Shown here: positions 5,316-61,063 of the stretch, in pieces
Position numbering within the stretch: position 1 is the stretch's first letter
Layout of the letters: every line of letters starts with the position of its first letter
From: an uncultured Rubrobacteraceae bacterium
GTDB lineage: Bacteria > Actinomycetota > Rubrobacteria > Rubrobacterales > Rubrobacteraceae
Length of the DNA stretch: 64,000 bases
Assembly: GCA_902805975.1 (NCBI GenBank)
Contig: CADCUT010000177.1
Span: 1-64,000, forward strand
Direction of reading: 5' to 3'
Notes under the pieces: generated by a model
The model's input: only the letters and a program-made list of their open reading frames with translations
Databases searched by the model: none
Told to the model about the DNA's origin: nothing
Made by a program: the position numbers and the translations under genes

Positions 5316-6596
5316 TTACAGCAACCGCATCACGATCGGGCAGTTGATGATGATGCCGGTCGAGCCGTAGGGCTCGCCCCCGGGGCCGGTGATGTGCCCC
5401 TGCTCGGCGAGGCCGAGGATCTGGAATTCCTCGGTGACACGCGAGCCGTAACCCTTGTCCGTGGCCTCCTGCGTCCACTCACCGATGTTGGCGTCCCACA
5501 TAGGGCTGTAGTCCGTGGCGACGGTTGGGATACCGCCGAAGACGTTCAGGGGGTCGCCCTCGCCGGAGACGGCGGAGTTGAGGCCCTGCCTTTGGGGATT
5601 CTCCCCGCCCATCGGCCCGTTGGCCGTGATAAAGATGCGCTCCACGGCGCTGAAGGCCGAGTCGTCTCGTCCGACGCCGAGGTCTTCGAGGCCCGGGGCG
5701 AGCGTGCTGCCCTCTAGGGCGGCGGCCACGGGGTCGTTGGAGTCGAAGCTCAGGTAGAGGACGGGCCGGGCGAAGCTGAACCCGTTGGTCAGGTCGAGCG
5801 TCACCGTGCCCTCGGAGGCCGAGATACCGACCACCTTGTCGTGCACGATGGAGTGGTCGACCTCGTCCCCCTCCATCTCCAGCTGGTCGGCCCCGACGCC
5901 CTGGGCGATGACCGGCGCGTTGTAGACCTCATCGCCAGCGTTCTCGACGCGCACCAGCGGGCTGTAGTCCTCGTCGCCCATCGAGCCGGGCTGGGCCTCC
6001 GCCGGCGGGAACGCGTTCTCGCCCTCGCCGGGCACGATCTTGTGCTCGGGCGAGAAGTCTACCGAGCCGCCCTCGAAGGTTAGGGTGCCGTCGCCGTTCT
6101 GGGTCGCCGCGCGTGTCCCGCGTCCCGTATTGGCGTAGGAGAGCTTGGCCGAGTGGTTGAGGCCAAGCGCATCGGCCTGGTCCGCATTGGAGGTGTCGGT
6201 CAGGACAAACCACTGGGGGGTGCCGTCCGCAAGCTCGCCGCGGTAGAGCGGCAGCGTGACGGTGTCCTTCTCCTCGTCGATCTCGCCCGCCCTCAGTAAC
6301 TCCAGGGGGCCGATAAGCTCCTTGGTCACCTCCGAGGGAGCCGGGCCGTTATACTGCAGCGGGATGTCGGTGCCGATCGAACCCGGCGCGGGCGCGACGT
6401 CGTCGTCGCCGCCGCTCTCGCCCTCCCCCATCTGCGACGGTCCCTGCATGCCGTCGCCGCCCTCTTGCTGGGCCTCGGACCTCATGGACGAGCCCGCAAC
6501 CAGCGCGGCGGCCAGCACCAGCACGAGGCCGGCAATAACGAACAGCCGACCCCTCGCCAGGGCCGAAGGACCCGATCCTCTAGCTTTCTCTTCCAC
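5316..6596 (-). CDS. secreted/membrane-anchored protein of unknown function
   Basis: N-terminal TM/signal (RLFVIAGLVLVLAAALVAG), long extracytoplasmic domain; GTG start preceded by gagaggag RBS (VEEKARG...). Confidence 0.75.
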   Translation of the reverse strand: MEEKARGSGPSALARGRLFVIAGLVLVLAAALVAGSSMRSEAQQEGGDGMQGPSQMGEGESGGDDDVAPAPGSIGTDIPLQYNGPAPSEVTKELIGPLELLRAGEIDEEKDTVTLPLYRGELADGTPQWFVLTDTSNADQADALGLNHSAKLSYANTGRGTRAATQNGDGTLTFEGGSVDFSPEHKIVPGEGENAFPPAEAQPGSMGDEDYSPLVRVENAGDEVYNAPVIAQGVGADQLEMEGDEVDHSIVHDKVVGISASEGTVTLDLTNGFSFARPVLYLSFDSNDPVAAALEGSTLAPGLEDLGVGRDDSAFSAVERIFITANGPMGGENPQRQGLNSAVSGEGDPLNVFGGIPTVATDYSPMWDANIGEWTQEATDKGYGSRVTEEFQILGLAEQGHITGPGGEPYGSTGIIINCPIVMRLL

Positions 6597-6739
6597 CCGC
6601 GTTCTCCTCTCTAGACCTCCGCCGGATCCGACCCCGGCGGGTGTTCCGCCTGCCTCTCCTCGCTCTACCGACCCAGCATCCACCTCCCGTTTCGTATCAT
6701 CCGGCCCCTTGGTTCCGGCCACATGGCCTCCCGACCAGC

Positions 6740-6788
6740 GTCCGAACGGTAGATGGTTCACGTGAGCCAACCGTGATGGAAGCGTTGC
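6740..6788 (-). promoter_or_regulatory. 11-bp direct-repeat box (WTCACG-N5 family), site 3
   Basis: Minus strand GCAACGCTTCC-ATCACGGTTGG-CTCACGTGAAC then TACCGT 15 nt after the last repeat start; upstream of the secreted-protein gene. Confidence 0.55.
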
Positions 6789-6957: not shown

Positions 6958-8478
6958 TCAGGGACGCGGCAGGCGGCGCACCCGCGGGGCTTCGAGGAAG
7001 CCCTTACGCAACCCCTCGTCGTCTATCCTGCCGGCCAGCGACCGGAGGGTCCGAGAGGCCAAGGAGGAGGCCCTGTCGGCCGCTTCGCGCTCGCCGCGCT
7101 CCTCTAGGAGTTCTCCGAGAGCGGCCCGTATCTGCCAGAGTTCGCCTGGGAGCCCGATCTTCTCGGCCAGATCCTCTGCCTGCCGCAGGTTTTCGAGGGA
7201 ACCCTCGGCATCATCCTCCCACCGGCAGAGCACGGCCAGCATCCTGAGGAGGACGAGGCGGAAGCGCGGGTTACTCCCGACCCGCTCGCCGAGGCGCCGT
7301 GCGTCCTCGCGGGCCAGATCCCCGTTGCCGCCCCGCAAGAGCGCCTCTGTCTCGTGGTGGCGCATAAAGTCCATCCACACCAAATCCGCCGGCAGCTCGT
7401 CCCTCACGCCCAGCGATTCGAGCGCGTGGGCATGGGCGCCGGCCCAATCTCCGGCCAGCGCCCGGTTCGCGCACAGCTTGGGCACTATTACGGACTTCCA
7501 CCGGCGCAGCGGGACCGTCCTTTCGGTGAGCTCCAGCGCCTCTAAATAGGCGTCGCGCGCCTCTTCCAGCCTCAGCACCGCCACGAGGACGTTGCCCAGC
7601 ACCACGAGCTGGAAGAGCAGCAACGTCAGGCTGGGCGACCCCCTCGCCAAGCTCAACCCCTCCCGGGCTACCCGGAGCGCCTCCCCGTACTCCCCCGCTT
7701 CGGTGAGCCCGTGGACGAGGTTGTTGGCCGCATGCGCCCGCACGAACCCGTTCCTGAGTTCCCGTCCGATCTCGGCGGCCTCGCGCGCGGCCTCTATCCC
7801 CGAGGCTACCTCGCCCAGGTTGACCAGGGCGACGGCGAGTATGCACAGGCACTGGGCGCGCATCGCGCGGCGGCTCGCGGCCACCGACTGCGGGGACCCG
7901 GCCCAGGCGTGCTGCGCCGAGAGCGCCCCCTCTCCCCCCAGTCCGGCCTCCAACCTCGCGTAGAGCGCCGCCCCCCTTCGGGCGGCCTCCGCGGACTCTT
8001 CGAAGCGTCCGACGGCACCATAGGCACCCGTGAGCGTGGCGAGGCAGCGGGCGGTCAACTCCTCGGCGTTCAGCCCGCGGGCCAGCGAGACGGCCCTCTC
8101 ACCGTGGGAGACCGCGGCCGGTCCCTCCAGGCCCGTGACGTACATCTGCGAGAGATTCCACTCCGTCTCCGCCAGCATCGTCCGGTCGTCGCCCGCCGTC
8201 GCGACCCGTAGCGCCTCCTCGAGCAACGCGACCGCCCCGGGCAAGTCGGAGACGCTCTGCGCGGAGAGGATCGCCAGCCGGTTGAGGGCCACCCATTCGA
8301 GCCTGGGCTCCCGAGCCTCCCGCCCATGCGCGAGCATGGACTCGTAGGAGGCCCGCGCCTCCTCCCACTCTCCGGCAAGCTCCCGCGCCCGACCCAGGTT
8401 CACGTAGAGGTGTTCGACCTCCTGCGCCGAGACGCCCTCCCTTCCACGGGGACGCCGGGTCCCGGGCGAGGGGGTCAC
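6958..8478 (-). CDS. TPR-repeat protein (module 3 of split BTAD/AAA regulator)
   Basis: TPR-like helical repeats, paralogous to 8475-9986; GTG start overlaps the upstream stop by 4 nt (GTGA). Confidence 0.82.
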   Translation of the reverse strand: MTPSPGTRRPRGREGVSAQEVEHLYVNLGRARELAGEWEEARASYESMLAHGREAREPRLEWVALNRLAILSAQSVSDLPGAVALLEEALRVATAGDDRTMLAETEWNLSQMYVTGLEGPAAVSHGERAVSLARGLNAEELTARCLATLTGAYGAVGRFEESAEAARRGAALYARLEAGLGGEGALSAQHAWAGSPQSVAASRRAMRAQCLCILAVALVNLGEVASGIEAAREAAEIGRELRNGFVRAHAANNLVHGLTEAGEYGEALRVAREGLSLARGSPSLTLLLFQLVVLGNVLVAVLRLEEARDAYLEALELTERTVPLRRWKSVIVPKLCANRALAGDWAGAHAHALESLGVRDELPADLVWMDFMRHHETEALLRGGNGDLAREDARRLGERVGSNPRFRLVLLRMLAVLCRWEDDAEGSLENLRQAEDLAEKIGLPGELWQIRAALGELLEERGEREAADRASSLASRTLRSLAGRIDDEGLRKGFLEAPRVRRLPRP

Positions 8479-9986
8479 GCCGCGTCCCCCCCGCCCGGAA
8501 CCGCGTCTAGCACCCGGCGGGCCCGGGGCGCCGAGAGAAAGCACGCCCGCCGCCCCTCATCCCCGACCCGGCCGGCCAGCACCCGCAACGCCGCCGCCGC
8601 GCGGCGAAAAGCCCCCGTGGCCTCCCCGGGCTCGTCGCGTACCTCGAGAAGCTCGCCCGCCTCGGCCGCAACCTGCCAAGCCTCCCCTGGCAGCCCTAGC
8701 TCTTCGGCCAACGCCTCCGCTTCGAGCAGGTACTCGACGGCGCGTCCCGTCTCCCCATCCCGGTGCGACAGAAGGGCCTTCGCCCGCAGGTACGGGACGC
8801 GGAAGCGCCGGTTTCCCTCCAACCGCTCCCCGAAGCGCGTAACCTCCCGGCGGGCGAGCCCTTCGTCTCCACCCCAGAGCAGCGCCTCAACCTCGTGGTG
8901 GCGCCACAAGTCCCTCCACACCAGCACCGAGGGGGTTCCGGCCCTCACCTTCACCGCCTCTAGCGCGTGGGCGTGGGCGCCGGCCCAATCTCCGGCCAGC
9001 GACCGGTTCGCGCACAGCCCGGAGAGCATGATTATGCCGTGCGACGCGATGGGCACCGCGCCGGCGACCTCCAGCGACTCCCTGTACGCCGCCCGGGCCT
9101 CCTCCAGCCCGAAAAGGGCCTGCCACGCGTTGCCCAGGGCCCAGAGCATGTAGAAGAGCGTCATGGGGTTGGGCAGGTTGCGGGCCGACTCCACGCCATT
9201 CTGCGTCAGCCGGAGCGCCTCCTCGTACTCGCCGGCGTCCAGCAGGTTGTGCGAGAGGTTCAGGGAGGCGAAAACCACGACCCAGTCGTTTTGGATCTCC
9301 CGGCCGATGGCGAGCGCGAGGCGTCCCGCGGCGGTGCCGGCCCGTATCCCGCCGAGGTTCGACTGGCCGAGGGCGATCAAGCACAGGCAGTTGGCCTCCA
9401 TAGCCCGCACGTAGAGCGCGTCTGAGGGCGGAGAGCCGGCCCAGAGGAACTGCATCGCGAGCGCGCCGGCCCCCATCGCGCGCCCGTTCATCCTCCCGTA
9501 CATCGCGCCGGCCTCGCCGGCCAGCGCCACGCACTCCCCCCAGCTCCCGCGGAAGGCTTGGGCGCTGGCGAGGACGTAGAGGCTGCGCGCGGCCAGTTCC
9601 TCGTCACCGAGTTGTCGGGCGAGGAAGAGGGCGCCCTCTCCCCGCGCGAGCGCCTTCTCTGGTTCCCAGCCGAGGGTCGCCACCTGCGCCAGGTTCCACT
9701 CCGTCTCGGCCAATACCGACCGGTCTCCGGACTCCCGGGCCGCGCCCAGGGCCTCCGTCAGCAACCCCTCGCCCGCCTCTACGTCCAGGGAACGCTGCAC
9801 CGCGAGAACCGCCAACCGGCTCAGGGCGGCCCACTGGAGCCTGGGCTCCAGGGCCTCCCGCCCGTGCGCGAGCATGGACTCGTAGGAGGCCCGCGCCTCC
9901 TCCCACTCACCGGCCAGCTCGTAGGCGCGACCGAGGTTGGTGTGGAGGTGTTCGATCTCCGCCGCCGAAGGTCCGCCAACGATCAC
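8475..9986 (-). CDS. TPR-repeat protein (module 2)
   Basis: GRAYELAGEWEEARASYESMLAHGREA...; GTG start in 4-nt overlap with the upstream ORF. Confidence 0.85.
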   Translation of the reverse strand: MIVGGPSAAEIEHLHTNLGRAYELAGEWEEARASYESMLAHGREALEPRLQWAALSRLAVLAVQRSLDVEAGEGLLTEALGAARESGDRSVLAETEWNLAQVATLGWEPEKALARGEGALFLARQLGDEELAARSLYVLASAQAFRGSWGECVALAGEAGAMYGRMNGRAMGAGALAMQFLWAGSPPSDALYVRAMEANCLCLIALGQSNLGGIRAGTAAGRLALAIGREIQNDWVVVFASLNLSHNLLDAGEYEEALRLTQNGVESARNLPNPMTLFYMLWALGNAWQALFGLEEARAAYRESLEVAGAVPIASHGIIMLSGLCANRSLAGDWAGAHAHALEAVKVRAGTPSVLVWRDLWRHHEVEALLWGGDEGLARREVTRFGERLEGNRRFRVPYLRAKALLSHRDGETGRAVEYLLEAEALAEELGLPGEAWQVAAEAGELLEVRDEPGEATGAFRRAAAALRVLAGRVGDEGRRACFLSAPRARRVLDAVPGGGDAA

Positions 9987-11407
9987 GGCGTCGCCCCCTC
10001 CCCGCCAAGATCCCGGGCCGCCAGCACGCGTCGCACCGGCGCCGCCGATACGAAGCCCTCCCGCAGCCCCGGGTCCTCCAGCCCCTCGGCCAGCGCCCGG
10101 AGCGTCTCGGCAGCCCGACGAAAAGCTCTGTCGGCCGCTGCGCGCTCGCCGCGCTCGCGGAGGAGCCCCCCGAGCGCGGCCCGCACCTGCCAGGACTCGC
10201 CCGGGAGCCCGATCTCCTCGACGAGCTCCTCCGCCCCCCTGAGGTGCCCGAACGCGGTCTCGGCATCGCCCGCCCAGCGGGCCACCGCCGCCAGAGACCG
10301 CAGGTGGACGACGCGCAGGCGACGGACCCCCCCTGCGTCCTCGTCCAGCCTCCTCGCCTCCTCGATCGCCCCATCCCCATCTCCGCCGCGCAACAGCGCC
10401 TCGATCTCGTGGTGGCGGTGGAGGGGCTCTGACAATTGCAGCAGGACCTCGCCCCTCGCCTTCACCGCCCGGAGCGCCCGGGCGTGCGCCTCCCCCCAGT
10501 CGCCGTCCAGGGCGCCCAACGCGCAGAGCTTGGAGTGGACCAGCGCCCGGTACTGCGGGAGGATCACATAGCCGGCCATCTCCCGGTAGGCCGCCCGGGC
10601 TCTGTCGAGCCGGAACAGCGCCCGCTCGGCGTCGCCGAGCATCATGAGGCTGATGAACAGGCGCGGCGGGGAGCCCAGGGAACGCGCCGCCTCCACCGCC
10701 CCGCGCGCCAGCGAGAGGGCCTCCCCGTACTCCCCGACCTCCAGGAGCGCCAGCACCAGCCCGTGGGAGTCGGCCCGGTGGATATCCTGGTCGCCGAGCT
10801 CCCGCGTGGCGGCGAGGCGCTCGCGCCCGAGCCGGAGCGCCTCCCGCGGCCGGCCCAGCATAACCTCGCCCCAGGCCGCGAGGGTCAGGGCCTCGGCCTC
10901 CATCGCCCGGTCACCCATCGCGGCGAACAGCGAGCACGCCTCGGCGGTCCTCCCCGCTACCCCCTCCCAGCGGCCCGCCCAGGCCTCGAGGAGCGCGAGC
11001 AGAAAGTGGCCGTTGGCCACGAGGTCGTCCCTATCCAGGCCCTGCGCCAGCGACAGGGCCTCCCCGGCACGCCCCAGGGCGCACGACGGCGCCCACCCGG
11101 GGACCGCCGGCGCCCCGTCGTCCTCGTGCGTCTGTGCCCGGCCCTCGGCGCTCCCGTCCGTCTTGCGCCGCAATCCCCGAAAGAGCTCGTCGTCCTCCTC
11201 CGGACGGACGCTATGATCGGTGCCGAGAACGGCGAGGTGCATTAGGGCCTTCCACTCCTCCTCCCGGTCGCCCGCCTCGCGCGTCTCGGCGAGCATCCCC
11301 TCGTAGGCCTCCCGCGAGCGCCCCAGGTCGCGCGCAAGCCCGTAGGCGCGTCCGAGCCTCTCGTAGAGACCGATCCGTTCGGAGGGGGCGAAGGGCTGCG
11401 GCCTCAT
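9983..11407 (-). CDS. TPR-repeat protein (module 1)
   Basis: TPR-like repeats and shared C-terminal L..GLEDPGLREGFVSA..VRRVL motif; ATGA overlap with the BTAD/AAA gene. Confidence 0.85.
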   Translation of the reverse strand: MRPQPFAPSERIGLYERLGRAYGLARDLGRSREAYEGMLAETREAGDREEEWKALMHLAVLGTDHSVRPEEDDELFRGLRRKTDGSAEGRAQTHEDDGAPAVPGWAPSCALGRAGEALSLAQGLDRDDLVANGHFLLALLEAWAGRWEGVAGRTAEACSLFAAMGDRAMEAEALTLAAWGEVMLGRPREALRLGRERLAATRELGDQDIHRADSHGLVLALLEVGEYGEALSLARGAVEAARSLGSPPRLFISLMMLGDAERALFRLDRARAAYREMAGYVILPQYRALVHSKLCALGALDGDWGEAHARALRAVKARGEVLLQLSEPLHRHHEIEALLRGGDGDGAIEEARRLDEDAGGVRRLRVVHLRSLAAVARWAGDAETAFGHLRGAEELVEEIGLPGESWQVRAALGGLLRERGERAAADRAFRRAAETLRALAEGLEDPGLREGFVSAAPVRRVLAARDLGGEGATP

Positions 11408-13665
11408 CCCTTGGCCGGGGGCCTCTCTGCCAATAGCCTCTTGGCCTGCTCGTAGAAGCGTATGGCGTCCTGGACGGCGAAGACGGCCATCGCCTCGTCG
11501 CCGGCGGCCACGAGGTGGCGGAACGCGCTCTGGGCCTCCCCGGCGTTCAGGGCGTGGCGCACCAGCTCGGGGGCGGCCGCCCCCTCGTCCCGTAGGATCT
11601 CGAGCGCCCGACGGTGGAAGACGCGCCTACGGGCGGCGCCGGCCTCGGTATAGGCGACGTCCCGGATCTTGTCGTGGGCGAAGGCGTAAGAGTCCGAAGG
11701 GACCCTCCCGCCGCGCGCCTCCACGACGAGGCGGCCCCCGAGCGCCTCGTCCAGCGCCGAGAGCCCCTCCTCCTCCCCGAGATCGGCCACCCGAATCAGG
11801 CGCTCGAAGGTGAACCCGTGGCCGAGCACGGCCCCCGCGGCCAGGAGCCTCGAGGCCGCACCCCCCAGGCGCGAGAGTTGCGCCCCTATCGCCGCGCGCA
11901 CGCTCTCGGGGAGGTACCCCCTGCCGAGGGCCCGCCCCTCGCGCGCCTCGCGCGAGAGCCGGAGGAGCGGCTCGCCCCCGGGCCCGAGCCGGGACTCCAG
12001 GAGGCCGCGCTCGGAGAGGTCCTTTATGGTTTCCGCGAGAAAGAGCGGCTGCCCCCCGGTCTCCGCGAAGAGCCACTCACCGAACCGCTCCAGCTCCGGG
12101 TCCCCCGCGTCCGGCTCCCCGCCCGAGAGTACCCGGAGCAGGTCCAGGGTGTCCCCAGCATCCAGGGAGCCAAGATCCAGCCGTCGCACGACCAGCTCCC
12201 GGCCCAGCTCGGAGAGCCACCGAACGGGGGATGGTACGGAGTCGGTGGACTCGGGCCGAAGCCCCAGGACCAGGAGCACCCGCACGCCCTCCTCGGTCCA
12301 GCGCCGCCCGGCGTACTTGAGGACGTCGAGGGAGGCCCGGCTCGCCCAGTGCAGATCGTCGGCGAAAAAGACGACGGGCTCGTCCCCCGAGAGACCCGCG
12401 AGCGCGGCCACCAGCCGGGTTATCGCCTCGAAGAGCCGGGCGCTGGCCTCGGCCTCCTCCCCGATGGCCGGCCGGGGAAGGTCGGGGTAGCGCTCCCGGA
12501 GCTCCGGCAGCAGCCTGCCGAGCTCGGAGAGCCAGGCATCCTCCAGCAGGTCGTCGGGGGCGCGCTCGCGCTCGATGCGGGGCCTCAGGGCGTCCACGAG
12601 CACCCCGTAGGGGATACGCCCCCCCGCCTCGTGGGAGCGGCCGCGGAGCGTGTCGGCCCCGCGGGCGGAGGCCCAGGCGAGAAACTCTTCGGCGAGACGG
12701 GTCTTGCCGATGCCTGCGTCGCCGACCAGGGCCACGGCGCAGGGGGAGCCGGAGGCCGCCAGGCGGTACGCCTCGACGAGGGCCGCGAACTCGGCCTCGC
12801 GGTCTACGAAGGGTGTCTCGGGGAGCGCTCTCGGGTCGGGCCTCGCGTTCGGGGCGGGCTCGCGCGGGAGGGCCTTCGCCTCCCTGGCCCTGGCGGCGAG
12901 GGTCTCGGTTTCGGGTGAGGGCGTGGCGTCGAGCCTATTCCTCAGCGCGGAGCGGAGGGCCTCGTAGCTGTCGAGCGCCCCGGCACGGTCGCCGAGGCCG
13001 AGCTGGGCCTCCATGAGCCTGCGGGCGGCCCCCTCGTCCAGGGGGGCGAGCTTTGCCCAGGCATCGGCGGTGAGCAGCCCCGCCCGCAGGTCGCCCCCCT
13101 CCGCCTGGATCTCCGAGAGCCTGTCGTGGACCAGCGAGGCCCGGCGGCGCCAGGCCTGTCGCTGGAGCTCAAGCCAGTGGTCGAACCCTGGCGCATCGTC
13201 CAGGCGAAAGCCTTGCAGGAAGTCTCCCCGGTAGGCCGCGACAGCGGTCTCGAGTCGCGAGAGGGCCTCCCGGTGGTCGCCGATGCGGCCCCCGGATCTG
13301 GCCACCGCGTAGCCGGCCTCCAAGGTCCGGAGGTCCGTGAGCACGTGGGGGTTCTCTCCGAGGACCAGCAGATCCCCCACCGCCCGCAGGTGGTTCTCGT
13401 CGAAGGAGCCGTCCTCCTCCCTCAACGGCGCGCGGAGGCTCAGGAGCGCGCTCCTGAGCGCGCTTCTCCCCCGCCCCTCGTCGCTACCGGGCCACAGAAG
13501 CTCGATCAGCTCATCCCTCGGACGCGCCCCGTCCTCCGCCGCGAGGTAGGCCAGCAGGGCCACGGCCTTGCGCGTCCCCGGCTTTACCGCCCGGCCGCCG
13601 TGCAGGACCTCCGGAGGTCCGAGCAGCCGGACGATCAGCCCGCCCACAGCCGCAACCCCGGGCAC
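11404..13665 (-). CDS. BTAD-domain / AAA ATPase transcriptional regulator (AfsR/MalT-like head)
   Basis: N-terminal VRLLGPPEVLHGGRAV...RKAVALLAYLA (SARP-type wHTH + BTAD), Walker A GDAGIGKTRL, VVFFADDLHWA Walker B. Confidence 0.9.
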   Translation of the reverse strand: MPGVAAVGGLIVRLLGPPEVLHGGRAVKPGTRKAVALLAYLAAEDGARPRDELIELLWPGSDEGRGRSALRSALLSLRAPLREEDGSFDENHLRAVGDLLVLGENPHVLTDLRTLEAGYAVARSGGRIGDHREALSRLETAVAAYRGDFLQGFRLDDAPGFDHWLELQRQAWRRRASLVHDRLSEIQAEGGDLRAGLLTADAWAKLAPLDEGAARRLMEAQLGLGDRAGALDSYEALRSALRNRLDATPSPETETLAARAREAKALPREPAPNARPDPRALPETPFVDREAEFAALVEAYRLAASGSPCAVALVGDAGIGKTRLAEEFLAWASARGADTLRGRSHEAGGRIPYGVLVDALRPRIERERAPDDLLEDAWLSELGRLLPELRERYPDLPRPAIGEEAEASARLFEAITRLVAALAGLSGDEPVVFFADDLHWASRASLDVLKYAGRRWTEEGVRVLLVLGLRPESTDSVPSPVRWLSELGRELVVRRLDLGSLDAGDTLDLLRVLSGGEPDAGDPELERFGEWLFAETGGQPLFLAETIKDLSERGLLESRLGPGGEPLLRLSREAREGRALGRGYLPESVRAAIGAQLSRLGGAASRLLAAGAVLGHGFTFERLIRVADLGEEEGLSALDEALGGRLVVEARGGRVPSDSYAFAHDKIRDVAYTEAGAARRRVFHRRALEILRDEGAAAPELVRHALNAGEAQSAFRHLVAAGDEAMAVFAVQDAIRFYEQAKRLLAERPPAKG

Positions 13666-13879: not shown

Positions 13880-13970
13880 GAGAATCCGCGTCCATCTGTG
13901 CAAGGCTAGCAGTCAAAGGTCAACGCACGGGTAAACACCGATTAAAATCTGGTGGACTCCGCAGGTGGCC

Positions 13971-14681
13971 TTAGGGCGGTGGTATCTCTTGGGGGCGGGG
14001 CACGAAGCGGTAGCCGATGCCGCGCTCGCTCCGGATGTAGCGCGGCTTGCCCGGAACATCGATCTTGCGGTGCAGACGTTCCACGAAGACCTTCAGGTAG
14101 TGTTCGGCGTCCGTGTACGCCGGTCCCCACGCTCTCCCGAGCAGGTAACGGTGGGGCAGCACGGTTCCCGGGTGCGCCATCAGCGCCTCGAGCAGGCGAA
14201 ACTCGGTGGGCGTGAGCCTGACGGACTCCCCCCGGAAGCGCGCCTCCCGGGTCGCGGAGTCAAGGGCCAGGTCGCCGACGACGAGGTCGGGTCCTGGCAA
14301 CGCGAGGCCCTCGTTCGCCCTTCGCAGGAGCGCCCGCAGGCGCGCGAGCAACTCGGGGTGGTCGAAGGGCTTGGTCAGGTAGTCGTCGGCGCCGAGGTCG
14401 AGCGCCCTGACCTTGTCGCGCGTCCCCTCCCGGACGGTGAGCATCAGTATGGGCACCCGGGATCTCTCGCGGATGCGCCGGCAGACCTCGAAGCCGTCGG
14501 GCGGCGGCATCGCGACGTCGAGCACGACAAGGTCGGGCCCGACCTCGGCGAACCGGCGGAGCGCCTCCTCCCCCCCCGAGGCGATGGTGATCTCGCAGTC
14601 GGGCCAGATCATCCTGGCCCCGAAGGCGACGACCCGGGCCACGTCGCGCGCGTCGTCGGCGATGAGCAGCTTGACCGTCAT
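13971..14681 (-). CDS. response regulator, OmpR/PhoB family
   Basis: Receiver (LLIADD...LVVLDVAMPPPDG...LGADDYLTKPF) plus wHTH (LTPTEFRLLEALM...RYIRSERGIGYRFV). Confidence 0.95.
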   Translation of the reverse strand: MTVKLLIADDARDVARVVAFGARMIWPDCEITIASGGEEALRRFAEVGPDLVVLDVAMPPPDGFEVCRRIRERSRVPILMLTVREGTRDKVRALDLGADDYLTKPFDHPELLARLRALLRRANEGLALPGPDLVVGDLALDSATREARFRGESVRLTPTEFRLLEALMAHPGTVLPHRYLLGRAWGPAYTDAEHYLKVFVERLHRKIDVPGKPRYIRSERGIGYRFVPRPQEIPPP

Positions 14682-15940
14682 CCCACCCCCGATTTCACCG
14701 GGAGAACGACGACAAAGCTCGCGCCGCCTCCGGGCCGGTTCTCGGCCCAGACCCTCCCGCCGTGCATCTCCACGATGCTGCGGGTGATCGCCAGCCCGAT
14801 CCCGGAGCCCCCTTCCTCCGTCTCCAGCCGGTGGAAGCGGCGGAAGACGGCCTCCATCTCGGCCTCGGGGATGCCGGGACCGTCGTCCGAGACGGTGAGC
14901 GAGGCCTCACTGTCCGAGGTGCGGCCGACCAGGAGAACGCGCGTGCCTTGTGGGGTGTGCAGGTGGGCGTTCTCGAGAAGGTTCACCACGACCTGCTCCA
15001 GCAGCCGGGAGTCGCCCTCGACGGGCAGCGCCGCCGGGAGGTCCATCTCAAGCGTCTGTCCCTTCTCGCGGAGCAGGGGGTCCAAGGAGGAGACGGCCTC
15101 ACCGGCGACGGCGCGCAGGTCGAGGGGCTCGCGTTCGAGCCGCAAGGTTCCGGCCTCCAGCCGGTTGTAGGCGAGGAGGTCGTCCACGATCATGCCGAGC
15201 CGGGCCGTGTTGCGCCGGGCGTTCTCCAGAAGCTCGCGCTCCCCCGGCCGCAGCCGCCCGCGCGCGCTCTCCTCCAGCAGCCCGAGACCGGCCCGGGTTG
15301 CCGTCAGGGGGGTTTTGAGGTTGTGGGAGACCGAGGAGACGAACCGCTCCCGCAGGCGGTCGAGCTCCCCCAGACGCTCGGAGGCGCCGCGGGCCGAGCG
15401 GGCCGCCTCCCGCTCCAGCGCCACCCGCCGGGCGAGGACGGCCGTGTTGGCGCCGAACAGGGCCAGCAGGATCACCCGGCTCCCGAGACCCATCAGGCCA
15501 CCGTCGCCGCCGGTCGGCAGCGCCAGGTCGACGGCCGCCATAAGGCCCGCGGCGGCCGCCGTGTAGGCGAGGCTGTCGCGCAGGGTCAGGGTGGCCGCCG
15601 CGCAGACGACGCCCACAAAGAACAGCACAAAGAGCGGTCCGCCAGGTTCCGCGCCGAGAGCGTAGATCAGGGCGCTCGCGGGCAGATCCAGCGCGTACTT
15701 CAGCCTGTACGAGCGCAGCCTGGGCACCCGGATGCGGGCCAGGTCGAAGGCCAGCAGCAGGACGGCGGCCAGCACGACGAGGGCCCACGTCGGGATGCCG
15801 AGACGGCCGTCTGCGGGCTGCGCGAGGGTGAGCACGAGCAGGGCCGCGAGGCCGCCATACTCCACGACAGCCACCGCGCGGTCGAGGAACCCGCGCAGCC
15901 CCGGTTCCCCCAACACGCGCCCGCCCGACGGCTTCGACAT
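14678..15940 (-). CDS. sensor histidine kinase
   Basis: HisKA (FVSSVSHNLKTPLTATRAGL) and HATPase (NLLENAHLHTP...SDDGPGIP...GSGIGLAI); 4-nt overlap with the response regulator. Confidence 0.95.
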   Translation of the reverse strand: MSKPSGGRVLGEPGLRGFLDRAVAVVEYGGLAALLVLTLAQPADGRLGIPTWALVVLAAVLLLAFDLARIRVPRLRSYRLKYALDLPASALIYALGAEPGGPLFVLFFVGVVCAAATLTLRDSLAYTAAAAGLMAAVDLALPTGGDGGLMGLGSRVILLALFGANTAVLARRVALEREAARSARGASERLGELDRLRERFVSSVSHNLKTPLTATRAGLGLLEESARGRLRPGERELLENARRNTARLGMIVDDLLAYNRLEAGTLRLEREPLDLRAVAGEAVSSLDPLLREKGQTLEMDLPAALPVEGDSRLLEQVVVNLLENAHLHTPQGTRVLLVGRTSDSEASLTVSDDGPGIPEAEMEAVFRRFHRLETEEGGSGIGLAITRSIVEMHGGRVWAENRPGGGASFVVVLPVKSGVG

Positions 15941-16036
15941 GCCCCCGGACCTACCCGGCAAGTCCCACCACCGCCCCCGCCAACCGGCGCGAAGACGGCT
16001 CGACCCCTCCAGCGCGACGCACGGACTCCACCTTCC

Positions 16037-16137: not shown

Positions 16138-16180
16138 ATCACGCCCGCATCACGCTCTCTTCACGGCCGGTCGGTATCGT
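16138..16180 (+). promoter_or_regulatory. 11-bp direct-repeat box (WTCACG-N5 family) with promoter, site 1
   Basis: ATCACGCCCGC ATCACGCTCTC TTCACGGCCGG then TATCGT at 16175; aligns over ~48 bp with the site at 21405. Confidence 0.65.
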
Positions 16181-16251
16181 CAGGGGTGGCTAAAAGGGAA
16201 CAGAGCCCGCCCGAAGCTTCGCTGGAGGGCTCACGAGAGGATCTGGTGCCC

Positions 16252-16752
16252 ATGCCAGCGGTGACTTTTGCGGCGGCCATCTTGCCGGGCCAGGAGGAGG
16301 GGTGGAGACGCTTCGTGCAGGAGGTCTGGGAGATGCGGTCGGACGAGTACGAGGAGTGCCGGCGGCGCCTCGGCGTCCGCAACGAGTCGGTCTGGCTCGC
16401 GCGCACGGCGGGAGGCGAGACGGCCCTGGCGTACCTGGAGGCCGACGACACCGAGCGTCTGGTGAGCACCCTCGCGGCGTCCGCGGAGCCGTTCGACGTG
16501 TGGCTGAGGGGACGGCTCGCGGAGTTCCACGGCGGCGACCTGGCACGGACGCCCCGCCGGTCGGCAACCGAGCTGGTCTTCTCCTTCGAGCAGGCCGCCG
16601 GCGGGAGTCGTCGCATAAAATCCGAACAGAACCCGCCGGCGACCCGCGTGGCGGAAGGGCCGCCTACGGACGCCGCGCAGAGGGTGTCCGAGAGAGGTGG
16701 AGCGGAGGCAAGGGGACGGGAGACCCCACGCCGGGAGAGGCCGGAGACTTGA
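16252..16752 (+). CDS. conserved hypothetical protein (possibly DUF6176-like)
   Basis: Start at MPAVTFAAAILPGQEEGWRRFVQEVWE...YLEADDTERL; family by pattern memory only. Confidence 0.6.
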   Translation: MPAVTFAAAILPGQEEGWRRFVQEVWEMRSDEYEECRRRLGVRNESVWLARTAGGETALAYLEADDTERLVSTLAASAEPFDVWLRGRLAEFHGGDLARTPRRSATELVFSFEQAAGGSRRIKSEQNPPATRVAEGPPTDAAQRVSERGGAEARGRETPRRERPET

Positions 16753-16791
16753 GTAGGAGGCCAGGTCGGCGGCGCAGATGGCAGACCGCTT

Positions 16792-16822
16792 CTTCGGGGA
16801 CGGCTGCGGGCCGTCCCCGAAG
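16792..16822 (+). terminator. strong intergenic hairpin (terminator/attenuator-like)
   Basis: CTTCGGGGACGG-ctgcggg-CCGTCCCCGAAG, perfect 12-bp stem, 7-nt loop; no clear U-tract. Confidence 0.6.
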
Positions 16823-16861
16823 CGGATATCGTCAGGGACAAGGCTGAGGAGGTCGAACGTT

Positions 16862-17422
16862 TTGGATCACTTGATACGCAGCAGGCTGTTCTGGGTCGCC
16901 GGTCTCGCTGCGCTGGCGCTCGCCCTCTACCTCGCGCTCGGCGTGTTCGGCTTCCAGACCCTGTTCTTCGACGACGAAGTGAACGAGGACTTCCCGGTTG
17001 CCGGGCAGCCCGCCGGGGGGGCGTCCGGGCGGGAGGGTCCCGGGACGACGCAGGAGGAGGCGGGGCGGGACCGGTCCGGGGCACCGGACCTGGTTTCCTC
17101 CGGGCGGTTTCACCCCGTGGCCCATGAAGGCACTGGCGAGGCGCTGGTGTACCGGCTCGAAGACGGCTCCCACGTGCTGCGCCTGGAGGACATAGACATC
17201 TTTAACGGTCCGGCCCTCTACGTCTACGCGGTTGCGGCCCCCGACGCGAACGACGCCGACACCATTCTCAAAGCCGGGTTCGTCAGCGCCGGTCCGCTCA
17301 AGGGGAACCGGGGCAGTCAGACCTACGAGCTTCCGGCGGACTTCGACCCTTCGGTGCACCGCTCCGTCTCCGTGTGGCGCGAACGATTCTCCGTCAACTT
17401 CGCCACGGCGCCCCTCGGCTGA
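16862..17422 (+). CDS. membrane-anchored DM13-domain protein
   Basis: TTG start with gaggagg RBS, TM helix, then LEDIDIFNGPALYVYAV...GPLKGNRGSQTYELPADFD...VSVWRERFSVNFATAPL (DM13). Confidence 0.82.
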   Translation: MDHLIRSRLFWVAGLAALALALYLALGVFGFQTLFFDDEVNEDFPVAGQPAGGASGREGPGTTQEEAGRDRSGAPDLVSSGRFHPVAHEGTGEALVYRLEDGSHVLRLEDIDIFNGPALYVYAVAAPDANDADTILKAGFVSAGPLKGNRGSQTYELPADFDPSVHRSVSVWRERFSVNFATAPLG

Positions 17423-18831
17423 TGGCCGCCCCGGAACAAGGAGAAAGGTCGTCGGGTACGGCACCGCAGCAGGCGGGAGCACCCTTGAACCACGAAGCGT
17501 TGGCCGCGCGGGCCGGGGCCGTCCTGCGCCAGAACGACATGGGGGTCTGGACGAAGGCCGCCCCGAGCCTGTACCCGCACCAGTGGAGCTGGGACTCGGC
17601 GTTTATCGCCATCGGGCTAGCCCACGCGGATACGCGGCGCGCGGCCGACGAGATCCTGTGCCTCCTCAGGCGCCAGTGGACGACGGGCAAGGTACCCCAC
17701 ATCGTCTTCAACCCGAACGCCCCGCCCGACAGCTACTTCCCCGGCCCCGAGCACTGGGCCGCCGCGGCCGAATCTTCGGAGGCGCCGCCCGGCCCGGCCC
17801 AGACCAGCGGCCTCTGCCAGCCGCCGGTGCACGCCATAGCCGCGAGGCGCATCCTGGAGGTGGCCGAGAGGCGGGACGAAGGGATCGAAGACGCGCGGCG
17901 CTTTCTGCGCGAAGCCTACCCCCGCCTCCTCGCCTGGCACCGCTACCTGGCGACCTACCGGGACCCCGAAGGGTCCGGGCTCGTCACGATCTATCACCCC
18001 TGGGAGAGCGGCACCGATAACTCCCCCCGCTGGTTCGAGGCCCTCGAGCGGGTCGAGGTCGGGGAGGGCCTGGCCTACGAGCGGCTCGACCTCCAGCACG
18101 TCAAGGACCCGTCGGAGAGGCCGACCCGGGAGACCTACGACCGCTTTATCTGGCTCGTCGAGCTCATAAAGCGCACCGGCTGCGACGACCGCGTGGTCCA
18201 CGCCACCAGCCCGTTTCTGGTCAAGGACGTGCTGATGAGCGCGATCCTGGTCCGCGCCAACGAGGCGCTGCTGGAGGTGGCCGAACTCGTCGGAGCCCCG
18301 GACGAGGACAAAGAGAAGATAAGCGCCTGGATCTCCCGCGGCCACGAGGGTCTGGCCGGACGTTGGGACCCGGATCTCGGCCTCTGCCTCGACTACGACC
18401 TGCGCGCCGAGTGCTCTCTCGCCACCCGCACGGTCGCCGGCCTCTCGCCCCTGATCTCCGGCTCCGGGACCGCGGAGCAGAGGCGGACGCTCCTGGCCAA
18501 CCTCGACGCGGCGTTTTTCGCGGGCAACCCGAAGCTGCGGTGGCCCCTCCCGCCGAGCACCAGCCCCGGCGAGCCGCGGTTCCACCCCAGGAGCTACTGG
18601 CGCGGTCCCGTCTGGCCCGTCATGAACTGGCTGCTATGGTGGTCCCTGGAACGTTCGGGCGAGGAGGAGCGTGCCGCCAGGCTGCGGCTGGCCTCGCTGG
18701 AGCAGCTCGCGGATGGCCGCTTCGGCGAGTACTACGAGCCGTTCACCGGCGAGCCCTTGGGCTCAGAAGATCAATCCTGGACCGCGGCCGTCGTCCTCGA
18801 CTGGCTGGCGGCCGGCGAGAGAAGGGGGTAG
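17422..18831 (+). CDS. mgh: mannosylglycerate hydrolase-like (MgH/GH63-type) glycosidase
   Basis: [19 protein letters not shown]...[13 protein letters not shown]...[11 protein letters not shown]...[14 protein letters not shown]; start overlaps the DM13 stop (TGATG). Confidence 0.8.
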
Positions 18832-18833
18832 GG

Positions 18834-20672
18834 GTGCGGCAGGAGAGAGTGAACGAGGCGGGTTACCCGCCCATCGCGGAGCACGGCCTGATCGGGGACC
18901 TCCACACCGCCGCGCTGGTGTGCACGAACGGCACCATCGACTGGTACTGCTGCCCGCGCTTCGACGCCCCGAGCCTCTTCGGTTCGATCCTGGATAAAGA
19001 CCGCGGCGGCCACTACCGGATAGCGCCCTCCTCGGAGGGCTGGACGAGCAAGCAGCTCTACATCCCGGACACCAACGTGCTCATCACCCGCTTCCTCTCC
19101 CCCGACGGCGTCGGCGAGGTGCAGGACTTCATGCCGATCACCGGGGACCCCGGCGCCCCGGGGCGGCGACCCCACCGCCTCGTCCGCCGCGTGACGTGCG
19201 TCCGCGGCCGGATGCCCTTCCGGCTGGAGCTCGAGCCCCGCTTCGACTACGGGCGGGAGCGGCACGAGACGCGGCTCGTGGCAGGCGGGGGCGCGACCTT
19301 CGAGACGCCGACCCTAACGGTCGCGCTGGGCTCGCCGCTACCGCTGGAACGTACGGAAGCTGGCGTCCAGACCCACTTCGTCCTCGGTGCCGGGGAGGGC
19401 GTCGCCTTCGTGCTCGACACAGCAAACGACGGCGAGGAGCCGCGCGCCTACGGCGAGGCCGAGACGCTCCGCGCGTTCGAGGACACCGTCGCCTACTGGC
19501 GGCGATGGCTCTCGCGGTCGCGCTACGAGGGGCGGTGGCGGGAGACCGTGCACCGCTCGGCGCTCACGCTCAAGCTCCTCACCTACGCGCCGACCGGCGC
19601 CATCGTCGCGGCGCCGACCACGAGCCTGCCAGAGCAGCTCGGCGGGGGACGCAACTGGGACTACCGTTACACCTGGATCCGGGACGCCGCCTTCTCCCTG
19701 TACGGCCTCCTGCGCCTCGGCTTCACCGAGGAGGCAGGGGCCTTTATGGGCTGGCTGACCGAGAGGTTCCGCGAGGACCGCCGGGACGGTTCGCCCCTGC
19801 AGCTCATGTACGGCATCGACGGCCGGGCCGAGCTCCCCGAGACGACCCTGGACCACCTGGAAGGCTACGCGGGCTCCGCGCCGGTACGCATCGGCAACGG
19901 CGCCGCCGACCAGCTCCAACTCGACATCTACGGCGAGCTTGTAGACTCCGTCTACCTGTACAACAAGTACGGCACGCCCGTCTACCACGACGCCTGGGAG
20001 GATCTCTCCCGCATCGTCGAGTGGGTCTGCGAGAACTGGGACAGGGCTGATGAGGGGATCTGGGAGACCAGGGGCGGCCGGAAGGACTTCACCTACTCCC
20101 GGCTCATGTGCTGGGTCGCCGTCGAGCGGGCCGTCAGGATAGCGCGCCAGAGGGGCCTCCCCGCCGACGTGCCGCGGTGGTCGGCCACCAGGGACGCCAT
20201 CTACCGCCAGATCATGTCAAAGGGCTGGCACGAGGGCCGCGGCGCCTTCGTTCAGCACTACGACACCGAGGTTCTGGACGCCTCCGTCCTCATGATGCCG
20301 CTCGTCAAGTTCATCGCCCCCACCGACCCGCGCTGGCTCTCGACGCTGGATGCGATCTCCTCAGAGCTCGTCGCCGACTCCCTCGTCTACCGCTACAACC
20401 CCGGGGCCTCCCCCGACGGCCTGATCGGCGACGAGGGCACGTTCTCGATCTGCTCTTTCTGGTACGTCGAGGCCCTCACGCGCGCCGGCAGGCTCGACGA
20501 GGCGCGGCTCGCCTTCGAGAAGATGCTCTCCTACGCCAACCACCTGGGCCTGTACTCCGAGGAGGTCGGACCTTCGGGCGAGCTGCTGGGCAACTTCCCG
20601 CAAGCCTTCACCCACCTCTCCCTCATAAGCGCCGCCTTCAACCTCGACCGGGCGCTCAGCGGGGGTACGTAG
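18834..20672 (+). CDS. glycoside hydrolase family 15 (glucoamylase/trehalase-like)
   Basis: [43 protein letters not shown]...[28 protein letters not shown]. Confidence 0.93.
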
Positions 20673-21404: not shown

Positions 21405-21447
21405 TTCACGCCGCCATCACGGTCCCATCACGGCCACCCGGTAACTT
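21405..21447 (+). promoter_or_regulatory. 11-bp direct-repeat box (WTCACG-N5 family) with promoter, site 2
   Basis: TTCACGCCGCC ATCACGGTCCC ATCACGGCCAC then TAACTT at 21442; same spacing as site 1. Confidence 0.65.
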
Positions 21448-21481: not shown

Positions 21482-22516
21482 TTGCTGCTGGCGGGCGACA
21501 TAGGCGGCACGAAGACCGCCCTGGCGATCTACGCCCCGGAGGACGGGCCGCGCGCGCCGCTGGCGACAGCGACCTTCCCGAGCGCGGATTATCCGAGCCT
21601 GGAGGCGCTGGCGCGGGAGTTCCTGAAGGAGAACCGCCTGCCCGTGGACCGGGCGAGCTTCGGAGTCGCGGGTCCCGTCTCGGGCGGCAGGTCCAAGGCC
21701 ACCAACCTGCCATGGAGGATCGACGAGGCGCGCCTTGAGGAGGAGTTGGGTCTCGGGTCTGCGTACCTGATCAACGACCTGGAGGCCGTCGCCCACGCGA
21801 CGCCGTTTCTCGGTCCCGGCGACCTTTACACGCTCCAGACCGGGGAGCCCGACCCGGAGGGCGCCCTGGCGGTGGTGGCACCCGGCACCGGATTGGGAGA
21901 GGCCTTTCTCACCCGCGAGGGGAGGGGCTACCGCGCCCACCCCTCCGAGGGCGGCCACGCGGACTTCGCGCCGAGAAACGAGGTTCAGGTCGGGCTTCTC
22001 CGCCACCTCCTGGGCCGCTTCGGGCACGCCAGCTACGAGCGGGTCGTCTCCGGCCTGGGCCTCCCCAACATCTACGAGCACCTGCGGGAGGCTGGGCACG
22101 CCGAGGCGTCGCCGCGGGTGGCCGGGGAGCTCTCCCGCGCGGACGACCCCACCCCGGTCATCGTGAACGCGGCGCTGGGCGACGGGGAGCGGTGCGGGCT
22201 TTGCGTCGCCACCCTCGACCTCTTCGTCTCCGTGCTGGGGGCGCAGGCGGGCAACCTGGCGCTCACGGTGCTCGCCACCGGCGGGGTCTTCCTGGGCGGA
22301 GGCATCTCGCCGCGCGTCCTGCCGGCCCTGGAGCGGGGCGGTTTCGTGGCGGCGTTCGGGAGCAAGGGGCGCTTCTCCGGGTTCATGGGGCGGGTGCCGG
22401 TGCACGTGATCCTGCACAAGCAGGCGGCCCTCGTCGGCGCGGCCTGCTACGGCCTCGAGACCTACGGCGAGGGCGCCATCTTCGAGCGTATACCCCAGAG
22501 AGGAGACGACCGATGA
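21482..22516 (+). CDS. glk: glucokinase
   Basis: LAGDIGGTKTALAIY, APGTGLGEAFLTREG, HPSEGGHADFAPRN, GGVFLGGGISPR. Confidence 0.93.
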   Translation: MLLAGDIGGTKTALAIYAPEDGPRAPLATATFPSADYPSLEALAREFLKENRLPVDRASFGVAGPVSGGRSKATNLPWRIDEARLEEELGLGSAYLINDLEAVAHATPFLGPGDLYTLQTGEPDPEGALAVVAPGTGLGEAFLTREGRGYRAHPSEGGHADFAPRNEVQVGLLRHLLGRFGHASYERVVSGLGLPNIYEHLREAGHAEASPRVAGELSRADDPTPVIVNAALGDGERCGLCVATLDLFVSVLGAQAGNLALTVLATGGVFLGGGISPRVLPALERGGFVAAFGSKGRFSGFMGRVPVHVILHKQAALVGAACYGLETYGEGAIFERIPQRGDDR

Positions 22517-60370: not shown

Positions 60371-61063
60371 ATGGCACGCATCCTGCTCATAGAGGACGAA
60401 GAGAAGATGGCGCGGGCGCTCGTGCGGGTCCTGCGCGAGGAGGGCCACGGCGTCGAGGTGGCCGCCGACGGCCGGATCGGCCTCTCCCGCGCGCTCGACG
60501 ACGGCTTCGACCTTTTGATCGTGGACTGGATGCTGCCGGGGCGTAGCGGCGTCCAGGTCGTCAGGGGTCTCAGGGCGGCCGACGTGCACACCCCGGCCCT
60601 CATGCTCACCGCCCGCAGCCAGATCGAGGACCGAGTCGAGGGCCTCGACGCCGGCGCCGACGACTACCTGCCCAAGCCCTTCGCCCTGCAAGAGCTACTC
60701 GCGCGCGTGAGGGCGCTTACCCGGAGGCCGCAGGGCGCGCCCGCGGAGACTTCGACCGTCAGGGTCGGGGACGTTGCGCTCGACCCCGTGCGCCACGAGG
60801 TCCGGCGGGGGGACGAACGGATCGAGCTTACGGCCAAGGAGTTCGCGCTTCTTGCGGCCCTCATGCAGAGCCCGGGGCGCGTCTTCTCCCGCTCTGTTCT
60901 ACTCGACGCCGTGTGGGGCGTCCCCGGCGAGGTCTCGACGAGCGTGGTAGAGCACTACGTCTCGTACCTGAGGAAGAAGCTGGACCGGCAGGACGAGCCC
61001 TCCCACATACGCACCGTCAGGGGCATCGGCTACACCTTCGAGCCGCCCCGCGGGTCGGCCTAG
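60371..61063 (+). CDS. response regulator, OmpR family
   Basis: ARILLIEDEEKMARALVRVL...LLIVDWMLPG...GADDYLPKPF + wHTH ending IRTVRGIGYTFE. Confidence 0.96.
   Translation: MARILLIEDEEKMARALVRVLREEGHGVEVAADGRIGLSRALDDGFDLLIVDWMLPGRSGVQVVRGLRAADVHTPALMLTARSQIEDRVEGLDAGADDYLPKPFALQELLARVRALTRRPQGAPAETSTVRVGDVALDPVRHEVRRGDERIELTAKEFALLAALMQSPGRVFSRSVLLDAVWGVPGEVSTSVVEHYVSYLRKKLDRQDEPSHIRTVRGIGYTFEPPRGSA

Follow-up and report, generated by a model that had tools for sequence, protein, structure and literature searches.

The window, the whole 64-kb stretch of DNA analysed here, carries a sensor histidine kinase (HK) and response regulator (RR) pair that diverges from a set of genes headed by DUFa, with a short repeat element, box 2 site 1, lying between the two. 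The gene for a large SARP, a BTAD protein, directly follows the RR gene on the same strand, and two further copies of box 2 lie elsewhere in the window. Coordinates, strands and assignments are listed below, with the window's own genome termed G000 and two of its congeners G003 (a Rubrobacteraceae MAG) and G004.

5316–6722, minus strand: DUF7482 protein (PF24298), downstream of site 3
6746–6788, minus strand: box 2 site 3, predicted promoter of the DUF7482 gene, which also has a box 2 in G003; GCAACG from 6788, ATCACG from 6777, CTCACG from 6766, N9, TACCGT 6751–6746
6958–8544, 8475–9986 and 9983–11407, minus strand: three TPR-rich ORFs in a row, all with homology to the C-terminal half of the G003 SARP
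11404–13665, minus strand: large SARP (OmpR-type wHTH, BTAD and AAA_16 ATPase; Pfam BTAD 4.4e-18, AAA_16 7.4e-23)
13903–13956, minus strand: box 1, in the RR–SARP intergenic region; four units, TCCACC/TTAATC/TTACCC/TTGACC, in 11-bp phase, with TAGCCT as the −10 at +15
13971–14681, minus strand: OmpR/PhoB-family RR (receiver and Trans_reg_C domains; Pfam PF00072 and PF00486)
14678–15961, minus strand: sensor HK (HisKA and HATPase_c), transcribed away from the site 1 genes
16138–16180, plus strand: box 2 site 1, predicted promoter of the DUFa, DM13, glucosylglycerate hydrolase and GH15 genes, with an orthologous site in G003 and G004; ATCACG 16138, ATCACG 16149, TTCACG 16160, N9, TATCGT 16175–16180
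16252–16752, plus strand: DUFa protein, unmatched in Pfam and NCBIfam; its orthologues in G003 and G004 also have box 2
16778–17422, plus strand: DM13-domain protein (PF10517)
17374–18831, plus strand: glucosylglycerate hydrolase (NF047898, 594.8 bits, cut-off 550)
18363–20672, plus strand: GH15 trehalase-like enzyme (PF00723, PF19291; best NCBIfam match TreH1, below cut-off)
21405–21447, plus strand: box 2 site 2, predicted glucokinase promoter, aligned across three genomes; TTCACG 21405, ATCACG 21416, ATCACG 21427, N9, TAACTT 21442–21447
21482–22516, plus strand: glucokinase (TIGR00749, above cut-off)

The hydrolase behind site 1 had been called a mannosylglycerate hydrolase in the initial annotation, and is better named a glucosylglycerate hydrolase given its NF047898 score above cut-off. 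The listed start of the GH15 ORF overlaps the previous gene; translation probably begins at a later position. On the minus strand, the window SARP stops after its ATPase, and the TPR half appears detached and triplicated: the three TPR-rich ORFs, whose stop and start codons overlap at the first junction, are all homologous to the same ~851–1335 segment of the single-chain G003 SARP.

At sites 1 and 2, three WTCACG units recur at exactly 11 bp, and a TANNNT hexamer begins 15 bp past the start of the last unit, just as the initial annotation had described for the triple repeat and phased −10-like hexamer at 16138 and for a matching second site at 21405. The third, inverted site of the same spacing that it had proposed is also present (minus strand, 6788–6746), with two good units and a degenerate first unit (GCAACG), a variant seen at several G003 sites too, and the OmpR/PhoB-type direct-repeat anatomy that it had noted is likewise found in box 2. 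With at most one mismatch, WTCACG-N5-WTCACG occurs five times in the window against 0.49 expected (0 of 100 shuffles reached five), and these five 11-bp pairs make up the three phased sites. A sequence-free scan for three hexamers at 11 bp followed by TANNNT at +15, where a hexamer match meant at least 5 of 6 columns identical, returned sites 1 and 2 as the sole matches in the 64 kb. The box 2 consensus is (GTCACGCCCCC)x3, then GnTAnCnT.

The window's own genome (a 3.5-Mb draft, 82% complete) has 13 copies of the exact 11-bp pair, five of them in the window. The eight pairs outside it were mostly coding-looking upon inspection, and a phased TANNNT accompanied none of them (0/8); one extra box 2 site with one mismatch was noted on contig C224. 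The box 2 regulon therefore looks small in this genome (3–4 sites) and mostly local. When pairs in the own genome were counted by spacing, 11 bp did not stand out genome-wide, so own-genome enrichment was dropped as evidence for a regulon.

Relatives of the window's genome carry box 2 at orthologous genes, as predicted by the initial annotation: DUFa and glucokinase in three genomes (G000, G003, and G004) and DUF7482 in two, meaning that all three window sites are conserved. The glucokinase promoter of G004 reads TTCACG/ATCACG/ATCACG-N9-TAGCGT, and a box also lies 5′ of its DUFa gene. The DUFa promoter of G003 reads ATCACG/GTTACG/TTCACG-N9-TATCAT, a triple box precedes glucokinase, and the DUF7482 gene with box 2 lies at L058 on the minus strand. 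When the glucokinase promoters of the three genomes are aligned, the repeat units and the −10 are kept and the spacers diverge. At L116 (contig C104 of G003), the DUFa promoter region is present twice (~9830–9960 and ~12330–12460), with a degenerate copy adjoining the kinase, an intact copy before DUFa, and a DUF7482 gene between, a layout as if that gene had been inserted with a duplication.

The pattern TCACN7TCACN10TANNNT occurs 19 times in G003 versus 0 for the reversed control. Allowing at most one mismatch, TCACGN6TCACGN9TANNNT occurs 29 times in G003 (control 0), a count that may be one too high as identical boxes at C38:45–86 and C68:6274–6315 reflect either recent duplication or assembly redundancy; the same search gave five sites in G004, four in G000, and control-level counts in G002 and G005. 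Genome-wide enrichment of the motif, another expectation of the initial annotation, is thus seen in G003 and not in the own genome. Circularity was avoided by listing all exact 11-bp pairs in G003 without the −10 requirement, which gave 21 clusters by our count; TANNNT lay exactly at +15 in 17 of these, against a background of 0.0026 per position (P ~7e-41). Within an alignment of 33 sites, a third upstream unit that had not been searched for was kept (A 82%, C 85%, G 88%; ACG 82–92% overall), a fourth repeat unit was absent, and the −10 had the form GnTAnCnT. Matches to HTCACG x3 outside the family and in G013 and G028 (e.g., CTCACGCCGTG tandem arrays) lacked the phased −10 and were set aside as simple tandem repeats or chance.

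Conservation at orthologous genes, together with genome-wide enrichment in a relative, bears out the earlier claim of one regulon, and sequence comparison indicates that the box 2 regulon is almost certainly real in the three related Rubrobacteraceae genomes. It is a regulon of 3–5 sites in two genomes and ~25 in the third (G003). Near the G003 sites, gene starts were placed by a simple script, and the distance from site to gene reaches several hundred bases in some cases; the genes there encode a class I aldolase, two SDRs, a sulfotransferase, a putative cyclase, an ABM-domain protein, DoxD, an EF-Ts-like protein, an EamA transporter, a CRP-type regulator, a ferritin-like protein, OsmC, a GMC oxidoreductase, two cupins, a luciferase-like monooxygenase, an F420H2-dependent reductase, and a molybdopterin oxidoreductase. 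The targets checked were metabolic or redox genes, with no pho genes among them. In the window, the output would fit glucose salvage from compatible solutes, in which the glucosylglycerate hydrolase and the GH15 trehalase-like enzyme would release glucose and glucokinase would trap it by phosphorylation.

A second array, noted as DISCRIMINATING and comprising TTNACC units at 11 bp (box 1), lies between the RR and SARP genes in G000, G003, and G004, and heads the SARP gene in all three of these box 2 genomes. TTNACC arrays are also found downstream of most RR orthologues examined, whether or not a SARP is linked, across three genera and a second phylum (Chloroflexota). At loci with no linked SARP, found in several Rubrobacter MAGs, a Chloroflexia MAG, and MAGs of Thermomicrobiales, equivalent arrays lie ~45–260 bp downstream of the RR. 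Scanning the first set of RR loci for TTNACC gave 14 strong matches in 83 kb versus 0–1 in each of 20 shuffles; at RR-only loci, a blind exact-hexamer search for triple 11-bp repeats was uninformative, and TTNACC scoring was needed. No array was found directly behind the RR at L299 and L300, where array-like sequence instead precedes a small 75-aa gene, and L301 and L302 end too near the RR to be judged. A small 75-aa protein with no Pfam family is often encoded downstream of the TTNACC array. We also noted the RR with a TTNACC array at L296, L303, L304, and L117–L119, in Chloroflexota (Chloroflexia, Thermomicrobiales) and Rubrobacter, a distribution which suggests horizontal transfer of this module.

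Boxes 1 and 2 share their register and a T-N-A-C core, and differ in the sixth base of the unit, which is mostly C in box 1 and G in 94–97% of box 2 units; TTNACG units occur occasionally in RR-only genomes. This difference suggests two binders and disfavours the reading of box 1 as a degenerate box 2 with the same binder. Box 2 was seen only where an AfsR-like SARP is linked; in G031, G036, and G038, which contain RR orthologues, it was not above background, and it does not occur wherever the RR does, as it would in an OmpR/PhoB-family RR regulon. The recognition helix of the RR has E or G at one position in orthologues with a SARP versus mostly R in those without, and the RR scores below every NCBIfam PhoB or MtrA cut-off (MtrA equivalog 174 bits versus a cut-off of 300).

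The protein encoded at 11404–13665 has an OmpR-type wHTH followed by a BTAD, the order expected of a SARP, as judged from the Pfam BTAD match and the structural model. The AlphaFold model of residues 1–270 (pLDDT 88.8) best matched AfsR in its transcription-activation complex via Foldseek (8hvr, E 3e-12), with AfsR 8k60 also matched and EmbR next best, and on these matches we assigned the protein as a SARP; phmmer against PDB sequences gave nothing useful. HK, RR, and SARP form a predicted operon whose gene order is common to G000, G003, and G004, and identity between G000 and G004 is 91% over SARP residues 3–175, 74% for the RR, and 67% for the HK. In a by-eye alignment of the recognition helix to that of AfsR, equivalents of R94 and of T88 (as S) seem present, and those of R92 and K95 do not (S/G and A/G, respectively).

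Based on these observations, we propose a relay, to which we assign a probability of roughly 0.6, running from HK to RR to the TTNACC array to the SARP and then to the TCACG regulon, with the SARP as the predicted direct binder of box 2 and the RR acting upstream. The HK would phosphorylate the RR, which would bind the TTNACC array (13956–13903) and activate the SARP gene, and the SARP would in turn activate the TCACG promoters. Each 43-bp element would then be an activator-dependent promoter, with three head-to-tail 11-bp operator units (GTCACGCCCCC) on one helix face and the last unit starting 15 bp upstream of the GnTAnCnT −10, in place of a −35; the AfsR-like SARP may bind these units side by side and recruit RNA polymerase. 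We take the RR as the binder of box 1 and the SARP as that of box 2, given the arrays downstream of SARP-less RR orthologues and the sixth base (C versus G). Counting for the SARP are the HK-RR-SARP linkage in all three genomes, the AfsR-like fold of the model, and the published operator geometry of SARPs; counting against it are the apparent lack of AfsR R92 and K95 equivalents in the by-eye alignment and the difference at one position of the RR helix, which could signify a changed RR specificity. Since G000, G003, and G004 are close relatives, common descent confounds the joint presence of SARP and box 2. The initial annotation had envisaged one response regulator co-controlling the sites, with the RRs at 13971–14681 and 60371–61063 as candidates. 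Its single regulon stands, and an OmpR-type RR as direct binder is not supported, as the neighbouring RR goes with the TTNACC array and the TCACG box tracks with the downstream AfsR-like SARP, which had been overlooked.

That the neighbouring RR binds box 2 directly, its specificity altered in this clade and the SARP being another target or a co-activator, is possible, though we consider it rather unlikely. Boxes of the OmpR/PhoB family, such as the PHO box, comprise two or more 11-bp direct-repeat units and so have the same geometry (PMC4415409), meaning that anatomy cannot decide between RR and SARP. All three genomes have the RR linked to the regulon, the box 2 clade has a different RR recognition helix, and a separate group within the same family combines RR-HK genes with TTCACGGCTTC repeats in the same +15 register, with no SARP noted nearby. 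However, SARP-less RR orthologues adjoin TTNACC arrays in genomes without box 2 above background, and the persistence of the array beside the RR in G000, G003, and G004 would demand two strict specificities of one protein.

Control of box 2 by an unlinked regulator, whether another OmpR-type RR (e.g., 60371–61063), another SARP, or a sigma-associated factor, appears improbable. The RR at 60371 has 95–97% orthologues in G003 and G004, and every genome has other OmpR-type and BTAD proteins; however, orthologues of this RR at 79–82% occur in genomes without box 2, it is not linked to the box in G003 or G004, SARP paralogues of ~51% are present in G005, where box 2 is not above control, and no such candidate is linked to sites in all three genomes. 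Among the OmpR-type DNA-binding domains of five congeners, the window RR group was the only one by single linkage to show the G000, G003, and G004 pattern; under a stricter reading of the same five genomes the 60371 RR group fits as well, and the test was therefore done family-wide. That the repeats arose by chance or from coding periodicity and play no part in regulation can be dismissed as highly improbable. In its favour, the exact TCACG-N6-TCACG pairs elsewhere in the own genome are mostly coding-looking; the orthologous conservation, the G003 enrichment, and the unsearched third unit speak against this reading, and the 17 of 21 phased G003 clusters over the 0.0026 background refute it.

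Returning to the proposed relay through the SARP, its evolutionary form, to which we would give about even odds, is that a two-component system recruited an AfsR-like SARP to serve as its relay. The RR would have kept its ancestral TTNACC array beside its own gene, now driving the SARP, and the SARP would command a rigid three-repeat (GTCACGCCCCC) compatible-solute and redox regulon that grew from ~3 to ~25 promoters among close Rubrobacteraceae. The Rubrobacteraceae are desert and radiation-tolerant actinobacteria with, to our knowledge, few mapped regulons. Box 2 provides a predicted promoter class for the family that is recognisable from sequence alone, and would connect primary and stress metabolism with an AfsR-like activator, whose family is known chiefly for antibiotic control. 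It also allows natural variation to be compared for the gain of a downstream relay by a two-component system and for the growth of a regulon.

A second family of phased promoters was also noted, with TTCACGGCTTC repeats and TANNNT at +15, at L075, L077–L081, L043, and L057 (G006, G030, G022, G010, G038, and G037). These promoters precede DUF305, DUF4396, or CcdA-like genes, and some of the loci have a different RR-HK pair nearby; they probably represent a Rubrobacteraceae two-component regulon related to metals or redox.

We found no paper describing a Rubrobacteraceae regulon of the box 2 kind, and in this sense the regulon is previously undescribed, while its architecture is of a known kind. 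The PHO box (PhoP-PhoB) is also built of 11-bp direct-repeat units, and its Streptomyces unit, GTTCACC, resembles box 1; box 2 differs in that its unit ends in G and no pho genes are among the targets checked. A PHO regulon was rejected, given the RR scores below the PhoB cut-offs and the checked targets are metabolic or redox genes. Boxes of the AfsQ1/MtrA type have the consensus GTnAC-n6-GTnAC, which GTCAC-N6-GTCAC in box 2 fits; box 2 differs in that its third unit is strict and its −10 sits at a rigid 15-bp offset, and the RR is not the MtrA equivalog. For SARPs, operators built of 11-bp direct repeats, with 8 bp between the 3′ repeat and the −10, have been reported (PMC10936776), and the operator of the SARP-LAL PimR is made up of three heptamers separated by 4-bp spacers (PMC5930380). 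The repeats of box 2 stand at the 11 bp (or 22 bp) seen in SARP promoters, and TCACG-N9-TANNNT, present in 17 of the 21 clusters, corresponds to that distance of ~8 bp if the heptamer is taken as NTCACGN. Like the AfsR and PimR systems, the window presents 11-bp head-to-tail repeats in the −35 region near the −10 and a regulator of wHTH, BTAD, and ATPase, and, like the PimR operator, box 2 has three repeats. Box 2 differs from the AfsR and PimR operators in its unit, GTCACG, and in having metabolic and redox targets instead of antibiotic clusters, and the window SARP differs from AfsR in that the base-contact residues R92 and K95 are apparently not kept and in its linkage to a two-component system.
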